Part shown: piece by piece, positions 24,342 to 28,435 of the stretch
Layout: each line of letters begins with the position of its first letter
Position numbering within the stretch: position 1 is the stretch's first letter
Origin: a candidate division WOR-3 bacterium
GTDB lineage: Bacteria > Hydrothermota > Tepidihabitantia > Tepidihabitantales > Tepidihabitantaceae
Direction of reading: 5' to 3'
Assembly: GCA_039801245.1 (NCBI GenBank)
Contig: JBDRUF010000019.1
Location: 1 to 32,703 of the forward strand
Length of the DNA: 32,703 nt
The notes under the pieces: generated by a model
The model's database searches: none
Seen by the model: the letters and a program-made list of their open reading frames with translations, nothing else
What the model was told of the DNA's origin: nothing
Made by a program: the position numbers and the translations under genes

Positions 24342-24879
24342 AAAAGTCATAAAACGGTTCGGTGATTTTACCATTACCGTTGTCTTGGGCGACATTACCG
24401 AACAGGAAACCGAGGCAATCGTCAATGCTGCCAATAATCATCTCTGGATGGGAGGTGGGGTTGCCGGCGCCATCAAGCGTAAGGGTGGGGTTGAAATTGA
24501 ACAGGAGGCAATGAGTCAGGGACCGATTGAGCCAGGTGCGGCAGTGACCACATCTGCGGGCAGGTTGCGGGCAAAGTACTGCATCCATGCAGCAGTGATG
24601 GGTCAGGACCTTACCACCACTGCTGAATTGATTGTCAGGGCAACCAAAAGTGCCCTTCTTGAAGCCAAGCGACTCAAAGTTGAGTCAATTTCCTTTCCTG
24701 CTCTCGGCACCGGTGTTGGGGGCTTTCCTTTTTCCGCCTGTGCCCGCTTGATGATTGGTGCGGTGATGAGCCACTCCCGCGCCAACGATTATCCCAAAGA
24801 GGTCAGGTTCGTCCTTTTTGACCAGAGCGCCTATGAGGCATTTGTCCAGGTGCTCTTGGCTTCTCCAGAAAAACAATGA
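24328..24879 (+). CDS. macro domain protein (ADP-ribose binding/hydrolase type)
   Basis: A 183-residue protein that is essentially one macro domain. Macro domains bind ADP-ribose and often remove it from proteins or from O-acetyl-ADP-ribose. Visible motifs are VVLGDITEQETEAIVNAAN, the glycine loop LWMGGGVAGAIKRKGG and FPALGTGVGGFP. The frame is open upstream to 24262, but the ATG at 24328 gives the normal start and a 14-base overlap with the PTS gene. It overlaps argS as ATGA. No ADP-ribosyltransferase or toxin is encoded nearby, so a housekeeping role is likelier than an antitoxin one. Confidence 0.92.
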   Translation: MSATEKVIKRFGDFTITVVLGDITEQETEAIVNAANNHLWMGGGVAGAIKRKGGVEIEQEAMSQGPIEPGAAVTTSAGRLRAKYCIHAAVMGQDLTTTAELIVRATKSALLEAKRLKVESISFPALGTGVGGFPFSACARLMIGAVMSHSRANDYPKEVRFVLFDQSAYEAFVQVLLASPEKQ

Positions 24880-26642
24880 GCCAATCGCAAGCCAATTACT
24901 TCCTCTTTCGCTCTCGGGAGATGTTGTATGAAAGGTTTGCCAGCCTGGGTTACAAAATTGAAATTGAGGAAATCCGGGAAGGCGAAGCAGGAATTGGTGC
25001 GGACATTGCCGTGCCTGTTTTCCGTCTGGCAAGGACAACTGGGGTTAACCCTATTACCCTTGCTGAATCAATCGCTCAACGGCTTGACCTTGCTGATTCC
25101 CCTTTTTCCTCGGTTCAGGCGCTTAAAGGTTATGTCAACTTCAAGTTTAATCCAAGAGTCCTTGCACGGGAGGTTTTTGCCGATTATCAGACAAACCCTT
25201 TAAAATACGGTAGCGGTGAATTAGGCAGAGGCAAAACAATTGTTATTGACTACTCCTCACCCAATATTGCCAAGCCGTTCTCAGTGGGGCATCTGCGTTC
25301 CACGCTCATCGGTCAGGCGCTTCACAATATCTTCACCTATTTAGGTTACAAAGTGATTGGCGACAACCATCTCGGCGACTGGGGAACCCAGTTTGGCAAA
25401 CTCCTCTGCGCATTTGAGCTCTGGGGCGAAGAAAAAAGGCTGGAGCAAAACCCAACCTCCCATCTCTTAGAACTTTATGTCCGATTCCACGAACAGGCAA
25501 AACAGGACAAAACCCTAATTTCAAAGGCAAGGGAGTGGTTTCGCCGGCTGGAAACTGGTGACCCGATTGCCCGTTCCCGCTGGCAGCAGTTTGTCCGGTT
25601 AAGCAAAAAAGAGTTTGAGCGCATCTATGATTTGCTGGGGGTAAGGTTTGATGTTACTCTTGGAGAAAGTTTTTATGCCGACCGGGTTAAAGATGTAATT
25701 GAACAGGCGCTGAAAAAGGGTGTTGCCCGTAAGGAGAAACCGCCCGCTAATGTCAGGGGTGACGATGAGGAATTTCAGGAAGAGGAAGGGGTTGTCCTGA
25801 TTCCCCTGGATGATTTTGGTATCAAGGTCCCGCTTATCTTGCAGAAATCGGATGGCACCAGCCTTTACGCTACCAGAGAAATTGCCACTGCCGAATATCG
25901 TATTGAAACCTGGCACCCGGAGAAGATTCTTTATGTTGTTGGTAAAGAGCAGGAGTTTTACTTCAAACAGTTCAACGCCGCCCTGCAACTGTTAGGGTAT
26001 AATGTCCCCTGCGTCCATGTGAACTTCGGACTGGTGCGTCTGCCTGAAGGCAGGCTTTCTACAAGAGAGGGCAGAATCATTCTGTTGGAGGATGTGATTA
26101 ACGAGGCGATTGAACGGGCAAAGGCAATTGTGGTGGAGCGCGAGTTGACCGCAGAAGAAAAGGAGGAGATTGCCCGCAAGGTTGGGATCGGTGCCATTAA
26201 GTATGCTGACCTCTCTCAGAACCGTATCAAGGAGGTGGTATTTGACTGGAACCGGATGCTGGCGCTTGATGGTGATTCAGCACCCTATCTCCAGTATGCC
26301 TATACCCGCACCCGCTCAATCCTGCGCAAGGCAGAAAAATTGAACCGTTCACTTGCTGACCCAAGCCTGCTTGTCGCACCTGAAGAGCAAAAACTCCTTC
26401 TTCACATCGCCCGTTTCCCCGAGAGCATCCTTGCGGCTGCCCAAAATTATGAACCCCATCGCATTGCCAACAGGCTCTACAGCCTTGCCCGTGATTTTTC
26501 TCTCTTCTACGACCGGGTGCCTGTTCTCAAAGCCGAAACCAAGGAACTTTGTGCCAGCCGGCTTGCCTTAGTGGAGATGACCGGCACAGTTATAAAAATC
26601 GGGCTCAACCTCTTGGGCATTGATGTCCTTGAACGGATGTAA
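24876..26642 (+). CDS. argS: arginyl-tRNA synthetase
   Basis: Class I synthetase attaching arginine to tRNA-Arg. The 588 residues show the N-terminal additional domain, then SSPNIAKPFSVGHLRST (127-143), whose HIGH motif reads SVGH, DNHLGDWGTQFG, the SDGTSLYATREIAT region, and at the KMSK position RLSTREG, a degenerate form as is common in this enzyme. The C-terminal DALR anticodon domain ends with IGLNLLGIDVLERM. The ATG overlaps the macro gene as ATGA. A 33-base gap before the next gene is the largest inside this operon. Confidence 0.96.
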   Translation: MSQSQANYFLFRSREMLYERFASLGYKIEIEEIREGEAGIGADIAVPVFRLARTTGVNPITLAESIAQRLDLADSPFSSVQALKGYVNFKFNPRVLAREVFADYQTNPLKYGSGELGRGKTIVIDYSSPNIAKPFSVGHLRSTLIGQALHNIFTYLGYKVIGDNHLGDWGTQFGKLLCAFELWGEEKRLEQNPTSHLLELYVRFHEQAKQDKTLISKAREWFRRLETGDPIARSRWQQFVRLSKKEFERIYDLLGVRFDVTLGESFYADRVKDVIEQALKKGVARKEKPPANVRGDDEEFQEEEGVVLIPLDDFGIKVPLILQKSDGTSLYATREIATAEYRIETWHPEKILYVVGKEQEFYFKQFNAALQLLGYNVPCVHVNFGLVRLPEGRLSTREGRIILLEDVINEAIERAKAIVVERELTAEEKEEIARKVGIGAIKYADLSQNRIKEVVFDWNRMLALDGDSAPYLQYAYTRTRSILRKAEKLNRSLADPSLLVAPEEQKLLLHIARFPESILAAAQNYEPHRIANRLYSLARDFSLFYDRVPVLKAETKELCASRLALVEMTGTVIKIGLNLLGIDVLERM

Positions 26643-26675: not shown

Positions 26676-27899
26676 ATGCGTCGGGTTTATTTTGACCATC
26701 TTGCCGCTACCCCGCTTTTGCCTGAGGCGCTGGAGGCGATGATGCCCTTTCTCAGAGAGGATTTTGGGAATCCGAGCAGTTTGCACCAATTTGGCACCAA
26801 GGCATTTCAGGCGCTAACAACCGCAAGGGAACAGGTTGCCAGCCTGATTAATGCCCAGCCTGAGGGAATCATTTTTACCTCCTCCGCATCAGAAAGTAAT
26901 AACCTTGCCATTAAAGGTCTGGGACTGGCAAACAAAACAAAGGGCAATCATATTATTGTATCCGCGATTGAGCACCCATCGGTGCTGGTGCCGGTGAAAA
27001 ATCTCAAGCGGCTTGGGTTTGAGTTCACCATCGTGGATGTTGACCCATTCGGCAGGGTTAATCCAGAAGCGGTTGTTAATGCGATAAGACCGGAAACGGT
27101 TCTCGTTTCGGTTATGCATGCCAATTATGAAATCGGGACAATCCAGCCCCTCAAGGAGATAGTTAAACTCTGCCACCAAAAGGGTGTGCCTGTCCATGCT
27201 GATGGCACGGCAGCAATGGGTAGAATTCCGGTTGATGTTAAAGAACTTGATGTTGATGCCTACTCATTTTCTGCCCAGTCATTTTATGGACCAAAAGGCG
27301 CTGCTGCACTTTACCTAAAGCCTGGAACCCGCATCCTTCCTTTGATTGAAGGCGGGATTCAGGAAAAGGGGCGGCGTGCCGGAACCGAAAATGTTGCTGC
27401 AATAGTTGGTATGGGCAGGGCAGCAGTAATAACAAAGGAGAAACTTGCCCAATGGGCAGGAAATATGAAGCGGCTTGAACAGAGATTGAGAAATGAACTG
27501 CCCAAAAGGGTGGAAAGGCTTGTCTTTACCGGTCATCCTGTTGAAAGGTTGCCCGGCGTTGTCAGTATGTGTGTTGAGTTTGTTGAGGGTGAGGCGCTCC
27601 TTCTGTCTCTTGATGATGAGGGTATTGCTATTGCATCCGGTTCTGCCTGCACCGCGCGCACGCTCAAGGCATCCCATGTTCTTTTGGCAATCGGACTTCC
27701 CCATGCCATTGCCCAGTCCTCTCTGCTTCTAACATTAGGCAAGGACAATAACGATGATGATGTTAGTTATTTCCTTGAGCGCTTCCCTCCAATTGTTGAG
27801 CGGTTGCGCAAACTTTCTCCGCTATATGCCAAATATCTTAAGGGCGAAAACCCCTATGAGTTCAAAACTGGACAAGGACATAATCACGAGGAAAATTAG
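26676..27899 (+). CDS. NifS/IscS-like aminotransferase-fold protein lacking the PLP lysine
   Basis: By fold this is a cysteine desulfurase of the NifS/IscS group: YFDHLAATPL start, SASESNNLAIKG, His100, Asp176 in HADG, GRRAGTENV, and Cys325 in the GSACTA loop followed by SHVLLAIG. In the family the cofactor lysine lies in SAHKFYGPKG. Here residues 198-207 read FSAQSFYGPK, so His-Lys is Gln-Ser and no Schiff-base lysine is present. The Gln that usually contacts PLP (HTDAVQ) is Ala179. The codons are plain in the DNA and the frame is intact. The product is probably not an ordinary desulfurase and may act as a partner or sulfur-relay subunit for the IscU encoded 8 bases downstream. Other possibilities are an altered activity or no activity. 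Confidence 0.85.
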   Translation: MRRVYFDHLAATPLLPEALEAMMPFLREDFGNPSSLHQFGTKAFQALTTAREQVASLINAQPEGIIFTSSASESNNLAIKGLGLANKTKGNHIIVSAIEHPSVLVPVKNLKRLGFEFTIVDVDPFGRVNPEAVVNAIRPETVLVSVMHANYEIGTIQPLKEIVKLCHQKGVPVHADGTAAMGRIPVDVKELDVDAYSFSAQSFYGPKGAAALYLKPGTRILPLIEGGIQEKGRRAGTENVAAIVGMGRAAVITKEKLAQWAGNMKRLEQRLRNELPKRVERLVFTGHPVERLPGVVSMCVEFVEGEALLLSLDDEGIAIASGSACTARTLKASHVLLAIGLPHAIAQSSLLLTLGKDNNDDDVSYFLERFPPIVERLRKLSPLYAKYLKGENPYEFKTGQGHNHEEN

Positions 27900-27907
27900 G
27901 AGTTAAT

Positions 27908-28435
27908 ATGTATTCAGAAAAGGTAATGGAGCATTTTCGCAACCCGCGCAATGTCGGTGAGATTGAAGATGCGGACGGCATTGGCGAGGTTGGCAATCCG
28001 GTCTGTGGTGATATGATGACATTTTACATCAAGGTTAAGGATAACATCATCACCGATGTGAAGTTCAAGACCTTTGGGTGTGGTGCGGCAATTGCGGTTT
28101 CATCAATGGTGAGCGAGATGGCAAAAGGGAAAACCATTGATGAGGCCTTAAAGATTACCAATGAACAGGTTGCAAAGGAGCTGGGTGGATTGCCACCGAA
28201 TAAACTTCACTGCTCCAACTTGGGTGCGGATGCCCTGCACGCAGCAATCCAGGACTATCTGCGCAAACAGCAAAAGCCCGAAAAGGAGTGCCGCTGCCCA
28301 TATTGTGACCAGCCGATTGCTGAAGGTTCAATCTGCCAGCCCTGCGCAGCCAGGGTTGATATCTGCCCTGATTGTAAAAAGCCGGTTCCCAAAGGTGCGG
28401 ACACCTGTCCGCAATGCGGCAGAAAGATAAAATAA
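27908..28435 (+). CDS. iscU: IscU-type iron-sulfur scaffold with C-terminal double zinc ribbon
   Basis: Scaffold on which Fe-S clusters are built. Residues 1-120 are a complete IscU/NifU-N domain, with Cys33 and Asp35 in VCGDMM, Cys58 in GCGAAIA and Cys102 in LHCSNL, all at the canonical positions. A tail of about 50 residues adds two zinc ribbons (C130-x2-C133, C143-x2-C146, C153-x2-C156, C167-x2-C170), unlike standard IscU of about 128 residues. TAGGAG lies five bases before the ATG. It sits between the lysine-less IscS-like gene and a glutaredoxin gene. The tail could bind metal, donate iron or dock partners. That part is inference. Confidence 0.92.
   Translation: MYSEKVMEHFRNPRNVGEIEDADGIGEVGNPVCGDMMTFYIKVKDNIITDVKFKTFGCGAAIAVSSMVSEMAKGKTIDEALKITNEQVAKELGGLPPNKLHCSNLGADALHAAIQDYLRKQQKPEKECRCPYCDQPIAEGSICQPCAARVDICPDCKKPVPKGADTCPQCGRKIK

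Follow-up and report, generated by a model that had tools for sequence, protein, structure and literature searches.

The window analysed here, 32,703 nucleotides long, is contig C19 of the genome of an uncultured candidate division WOR-3 bacterium; the genome amounts to 1.70 Mb in 70 contigs and is 97% complete. It carries on its forward strand a group of genes in the order argS, lysine-less iscS, iscU, glutaredoxin, a fusion of ferredoxin:thioredoxin reductase beta (FTR-beta) with rubredoxin, and thiamine-binding protein. The genes and the residues that are discussed below are as follows.

24876..26642, + strand: argS, the upstream neighbour, assigned by search and from relatives, conserved in several genera of the family
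26676..27899, + strand: lysine-less homologue of class I cysteine desulfurases (IscS/NifS fold), 407 aa, ATG start; Aminotran_5 PF00266, 251 bits
27126..27128, + strand: Tyr151, replacing the second Asn of the NNEIG motif (Asn in 111/111 Lys-bearing and 29/51 Lys-less proteins)
27201..27203, + strand: Asp176, the PLP ring Asp (E. coli Asp180), retained (51/51 Lys-less, 111/111 Lys-bearing)
27210..27212, + strand: Ala179, replacing by alignment the PLP-contacting Gln (E. coli Gln183)
27276..27281, + strand: Gln201-Ser202, replacing the His-Lys pair (E. coli His205-Lys206), from translation and alignment
27648..27650, + strand: Cys325, the catalytic-loop cysteine (E. coli Cys328, A. fulgidus Cys321), retained by alignment
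27726..27728, + strand: Leu351, 26 residues past the Cys, replacing the active-site Arg (E. coli Arg354, a number counted from Cys328)
27908..28435, + strand: iscU, the sole NifU_N gene found in the genome; TIGR03419 above cut-off
28295..28420, + strand: C-terminal double zinc ribbon fused to IscU; DZR, 27.3 bits
28447..28728, + strand: glutaredoxin-like gene (CGWC); PF00462, 49 bits
28731..29243, + strand: FTR-beta-like domain fused to a rubredoxin domain; PF02943 77.8 bits, PF21349 50.1 bits
29240..29539, + strand: thiamine-binding protein, last of the cluster, also in relatives; PF01910

In the lysine-less reading frame the motif that should bear the Schiff-base lysine reads S199-A-Q201-S202-F-Y-G-P-K-G (codons TCT GCC CAG TCA TTT TAT), and this lysine is absent from the protein. 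A sequence-only reading of this DNA had reported SAQSFYGPKG with loss of Lys, His and the PLP Gln (now Ala179), and codons and alignment bear this out. The position 27290 that it gave for the change lies about 10 bases off, as the Ser202 codon occupies 27279-27281, and its list of losses was right but incomplete: the active-site Arg (Leu351) and the second Asn of NNEIG (Tyr151) have gone as well. Its Cys325 is indeed retained, in a mobile cysteine loop of the SSGSAC type that here reads ASGSAC. In E. coli IscS, His104, Asp180, Gln183, Lys206 and Cys328 are each required for activity, and the K206A mutant has no desulfurase activity and retains some PLP (PMC9978102). It is from these data together with the losses in the window protein that inactivity is inferred. 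Judged by its defining residues, that is from sequence only, the protein would not belong to the active class I cysteine desulfurases (EC 2.8.1.7) despite the shared fold; it probably shares with them the place beside IscU. It also misses the NCBIfam cut-offs for NifS (TIGR03402, 451.5 vs 530.75) and IscS (TIGR02006, 355 vs 643). It should be noted here that this test is weak, since the canonical copy of the same genome, at 530.1, also falls just under the NifS cut-off.

The alignment of 162 relatives contains 51 Lys-less and 111 Lys-bearing proteins. Arg is absent and Cys retained in all 51 of the former, and Lys, Arg and Cys are all retained in all 111 of the latter. The position of the PLP Gln is occupied by Ala in 48/51 Lys-less proteins and by Gln in 99/111 Lys-bearing ones. 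His100, Asp176 and Glu152 are conserved in every aligned protein, and Thr237 in nearly every one. At the Lys position of the 51 proteins Ser was found 18 times, Gln 12, Asp 11, Thr 7 and others three times (residues seen: S, Q, D, T, A, R, P). These observations bear on the possibility that the window protein has remained a desulfurase, though an unusual one, which would bind PLP or PMP without a Schiff base and employ another residue as the base. The full conservation of His100 and Asp176 and the nearly full conservation of Thr237 agree with it, as does the argument that E. coli K206A can still perform some of the reaction at a very low rate (PMC9978102); the IscS of Archaeoglobus fulgidus, which also lacks the lysine, was, by its title, published as 'an unusual L-cysteine desulfurase' (4HVK). 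However, a residue that varies in this manner leaves no conserved substitute base, Arg and Gln are gone too, and the A. fulgidus protein was reported inactive in a later paper, which is cited in PMC7585200. Such an activity is considered unlikely.

Perfect coupling of Lys loss to Arg loss holds in the main set and is broken by five Nitrospirota loci (L275, L276, L281, L289, L290), which keep SAHK, have lost Arg (GSLLF) and Gln (DAAM) and lie beside iscU and tusA. Four of these five sequences were left after thinning for the 76-row tree, and they fall inside the bacterial Lys-less clade, where they are apparent intermediates. Arg loss thus seems to mark the clade more generally than Lys loss does. 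The sequence-only reading had proposed to look for a clade with the Q-S pair beside iscU. A Lys-less clade was recovered, and within the family it adjoins iscU; the exact pair, however, is a local signature, and elsewhere MS, HQ, NQ, HT, SQ or ND is found.

A Lys-less ortholog lies directly before iscU in 16/18 genomes of the window's WOR-3 family in GTDB, with the pair always QS or MS. The dN/dS values of the Lys-less gene between close pairs of genomes are 0.122 (G004/G005) and 0.134 (G007/G008); for comparison, those of the canonical copy are 0.078 and 0.074. The Lys-less gene is under purifying selection in this family. It had been said earlier that an assembly error at the motif would refute the claim, and this can be set aside as the Lys-less form is common to the 16 family genomes and to wider relatives. 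A sequencing or assembly error or a decaying gene is excluded for practical purposes: the change is shared by orthologues in independent genomes, dN/dS is 0.12-0.13, the frames remain open at 46-73% identity over phyla, and no point in support of error or decay was found.

The start of iscU lies 8 bases downstream of the Lys-less reading frame, and adjacency holds in 16/16 Lys-less genomes of the family, in agreement with the position directly before iscU that had been claimed. The window IscU retains Cys33, Asp35, Cys58, Lys99, His101 and Cys102, and the ligand residues are intact in all 33 full-length IscUs that adjoin Lys-less genes. Glutaredoxin and FTR-rubredoxin follow iscU in 11 of the 12 family loci with enough flank. 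The succession of a CGWC glutaredoxin and FTR-rubredoxin in most genomes of the family could represent a redox chain of its own. The zinc ribbon, seen in the window and in relatives L136, L139, L142 and L203, is fused to IscU in the window's genus, whereas other genera encode it in a small gene of its own that follows iscU immediately. Rubrerythrin-like genes, often in tandem, stand directly before Lys-less iscS at L146-L150 and L215, in several WOR-3 families. In archaeal loci L206, L209, L210, L217 and L228 iscU is followed by a conserved gene of helix-turn-helix-like type, whose product begins MKPHC or MRPPC and is a possible regulator of the cluster.

Genes for the sulfur carriers TusA and/or DsrE were found within 3.5 kb on the same strand at 22/44 Lys-less loci vs 0/69 Lys-bearing loci. 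The units of this comparison are loci rather than independent events, and the models used to search for both carriers derive from sequences that lie next to Lys-less genes. In a survey of Nitrospirota and Chloroflexota most Lys-less loci had IscU and TusA, and those of Chloroflexota mostly DsrE too. Several Lys-less genes, for example L147, L151-L153 and L214, have no iscU nearby. It could be argued that the protein serves mainly to relay persulfide from TusA/DsrE to acceptors other than IscU, in tRNA thiolation or sulfur metabolism, and that adjacency to iscU is secondary. TusA/DsrE neighbours without a nearby iscU, as in L149-L152, L085, L089, L056 and L055, fit such a relay. Within the window's family, however, iscU is always adjacent and the search of the own genome found no TusA, and all 10 archaeal loci counted carry IscU together with TusA or DsrE; a relay as the main role is quite unlikely.

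The sequence-only reading had proposed to check for another complete desulfurase in the genome, and one was found at G000:C38:1345-2511 (SGHKIHAPKG, SVVRFS), beside an lspA-like gene; none was found in G120 and some other genomes. A canonical enzyme is encoded in 15/16 Lys-less genomes of the family. No SufBD was found in the own genome or in 17/18 genomes of the family. In the one exception, G016, iscU is preceded by a canonical Lys-bearing iscS, and a Lys-less gene is absent. G120, a genome of the same WOR-3 order that is 96% complete, has the Lys-less gene before its sole IscU; no other desulfurase homologue (next match 6.5e-10) and no SufBD were found in it, and as it is a draft this absence is not proof. 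Similarly, no other desulfurase homologue was found in the drafts of five archaea (G275, G352, G260, G182, G328) and of G652, in which SufB is present, and no canonical partner in the draft of G119. One of these archaea (G275) has two Lys-less iscS-iscU clusters (L217, L209). The frequent presence of a canonical enzyme would be in keeping with a regulatory subunit, which forms a heterodimer with the canonical desulfurase or competes with it for IscU. Against this stand G120, G119, G652 and the five archaeal genomes, in which no canonical partner was found, and an identity of only about 46% between the Lys-less and canonical proteins of the own genome. We regard a regulatory subunit as very unlikely.

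The structure of the window protein was predicted with AlphaFold (AF2) from 84 relatives, with a mean pLDDT of 93.9; an earlier run with 13 sequences (pLDDT 58.8) was set aside. Apart from the C-terminal tail, the sole stretch of low confidence is residues 326-329, just past Cys325, as is expected of a mobile cysteine loop. In the PDB the model is matched best by 4HVK, the IscS of A. fulgidus that lacks the lysine (45% identity, rmsd 1.1); human NFS1 in ISC complexes and E. coli IscS rank next (TM about 0.9). Among PDB chains 9wep-9wfy, a closely related set named 'cysteine desulfurase', one chain has Leu in place of the Lys.

In the genome collection the closest relative with a name is likewise labelled candidate division WOR-3 (L054, 64% identity), and Lys-less proteins were found in other families of the same order and class. 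Further bacterial hosts are Anaerolineales, Dehalococcoidia, Omnitrophota, Nitrospirota including Troglogloeales, Desulfobacterales, Scalindua and a proteobacterial bin; the archaeal hosts include Methanophagales. Trees were built after the active-site columns had been taken out. In a 55-row tree the bacterial Lys-less set forms one clade (98/90) and the archaeal set, including A. fulgidus IscS2, another (100/99). With 76 rows the support of the bacterial clade is 90/95, and the archaeal Lys-less set joins archaeal Lys-bearing sequences (97/97). When both sets were forced into one clade, lnL was 3.95 higher with 55 rows (p 0.584) and 34.3 lower with 76 rows (p 0.15). Two origins of Lys-less IscS are favoured over one, and a single origin is neither shown nor excluded. 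The suggestion that the lysine-less class is wider than Archaeoglobus has held up, given a bacterial clade that extends over WOR-3, Nitrospirota, Chloroflexota, Omnitrophota, Desulfobacterales and Scalindua.

We consider it likely that the window protein is an IscS which has lost all or nearly all catalytic activity and acts as a partner platform of IscU, the sulfur being made elsewhere; inactivity, docking, ligand role, sulfur source and electron donors are all inferred. The Lys-less protein keeps the fold of IscS as well as its mobile cysteine loop, and IscU would dock on it. Cys325 could then swing into the IscU site and serve as a thiolate or persulfide ligand during build-up of the [2Fe-2S] cluster. 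Sulfur would not be cut from cysteine by the Lys-less protein and would arrive as sulfide or persulfide. TusA/DsrE carriers would bring it in organisms with these genes in the operon; for the window's family the source would be sulfide or else the canonical desulfurase, whose gene lies at another place. Reducing electrons might come from glutaredoxin and FTR-rubredoxin; as donors these are plausible and are inferred from the operon alone. Anaerobic E. coli that lacks IscS can use H2S to assemble clusters on IscU (PMC13015791), which makes the proposed chemistry plausible.

The role as a platform for IscU is supported by the loss of Arg and retention of Cys in 51/51 proteins, by selection, by adjacency to iscU with intact IscU ligands, by the association with TusA/DsrE, by the failure to find SufBD in 17/18 family genomes and by G120, where no other desulfurase was found. 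It is further supported by the best model match, A. fulgidus IscS, described as inactive and with Cys321 as a cluster ligand. On the other hand the conserved His100, Asp176 and Thr237 hold PLP in canonical enzymes, which counts against a dead protein; a B6 compound may still bind, and the data do not imply that such binding has been lost altogether. The Lys-less genes without a nearby iscU and the failure to find TusA in the own genome also speak against the platform. In addition, the canonical enzyme on C38 can supply sulfur in the own genome, so that cysteine may still be the ultimate source there. The sequence-only reading had envisaged that the protein serves cluster assembly in a conserved manner and without classical desulfuration. 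This is supported by the clade and by adjacency to iscU, the absence of Schiff-base PLP and of activity being a matter of inference.

The recurrence of the Lys-less form in many bacterial phyla and some archaea suggests that clusters are widely built without direct cysteine sulfur at this step. Lys-less proteins score highest against models of cysteine desulfurases, and the sulfur economy of many anaerobes may consequently be misread. It is conceivable, and we stop a little short of believing it, that some bacteria, G120 being the clearest case, make all their Fe-S clusters without any cysteine desulfurase, with IscU and a non-enzymatic IscS platform fed by inorganic sulfide or carrier persulfide, and that this extends across several anaerobic phyla and archaea. 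If true, Fe-S assembly in several phyla would rely on a non-enzymatic IscS that docks with IscU and provides a ligand, and sulfur would be brought in as sulfide or by TusA/DsrE. The old question of whether anaerobes need cysteine as a sulfur source would then become directly testable, and G120, a genome in which nothing else known was found, would be useful for it.

To our knowledge there is no biochemistry for any bacterial Lys-less member. In the open literature nothing was found on a bacterial lysine-less IscS clade or on linkage to TusA/DsrE, subscription papers being outside the search; the bacterial clade and its operon linkage appear to be new. The lysine-less IscS of A. fulgidus and IscS1 of Methanosarcina acetivorans are known already (PMC7585200), the former being the Archaeoglobus precedent that the sequence-only reading had cited.

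Among known systems the canonical NifS-like enzyme on C38 belongs to the same family, with about 46% identity to the window protein, but has Lys, His and Arg, has Cys at the position of the PLP Gln and is not in an isc cluster. E. coli IscS and human NFS1 share the fold (TM 0.90-0.96), the Cys loop and the partnership with IscU, whereas they retain Lys, His, Gln and Arg and liberate the sulfur of cysteine. M. acetivorans IscS1 (MA0808) is, like the window protein, a class I homologue without the Lys, encoded beside iscU1 and with STGSAC kept; it differs in being archaeal, its expression in E. coli gave inclusion bodies so that no assay is on record in PMC7585200, and its neighbours are given only as four genes of unknown function. 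A. fulgidus IscS2 (4EB5, 4EB7, 4HVK; D199K variant 4R5F) belongs to an archaeal clade that mostly has the SSND motif and joins archaeal canonical sequences in the larger tree, and its archaeal relatives have TusA/DsrE operons, whereas the window has glutaredoxin and FTR-rubredoxin. In the structure of its complex with IscU the cluster is held by three IscU Cys and by IscS Cys321 (PMC9769115). PMC7585200 describes this IscS as a ligand donor without desulfurase activity, and cites a later paper for the inactivity. Like the window protein it has lost Lys and Arg and retained Cys, it has an IscU partner and the same fold (TM 0.89-0.98, 45-46% identity), and its close archaeal relatives lie directly before iscU. 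In loss of Lys, retention of Cys and a gene beside iscU, the window protein matches the A. fulgidus type on every count.
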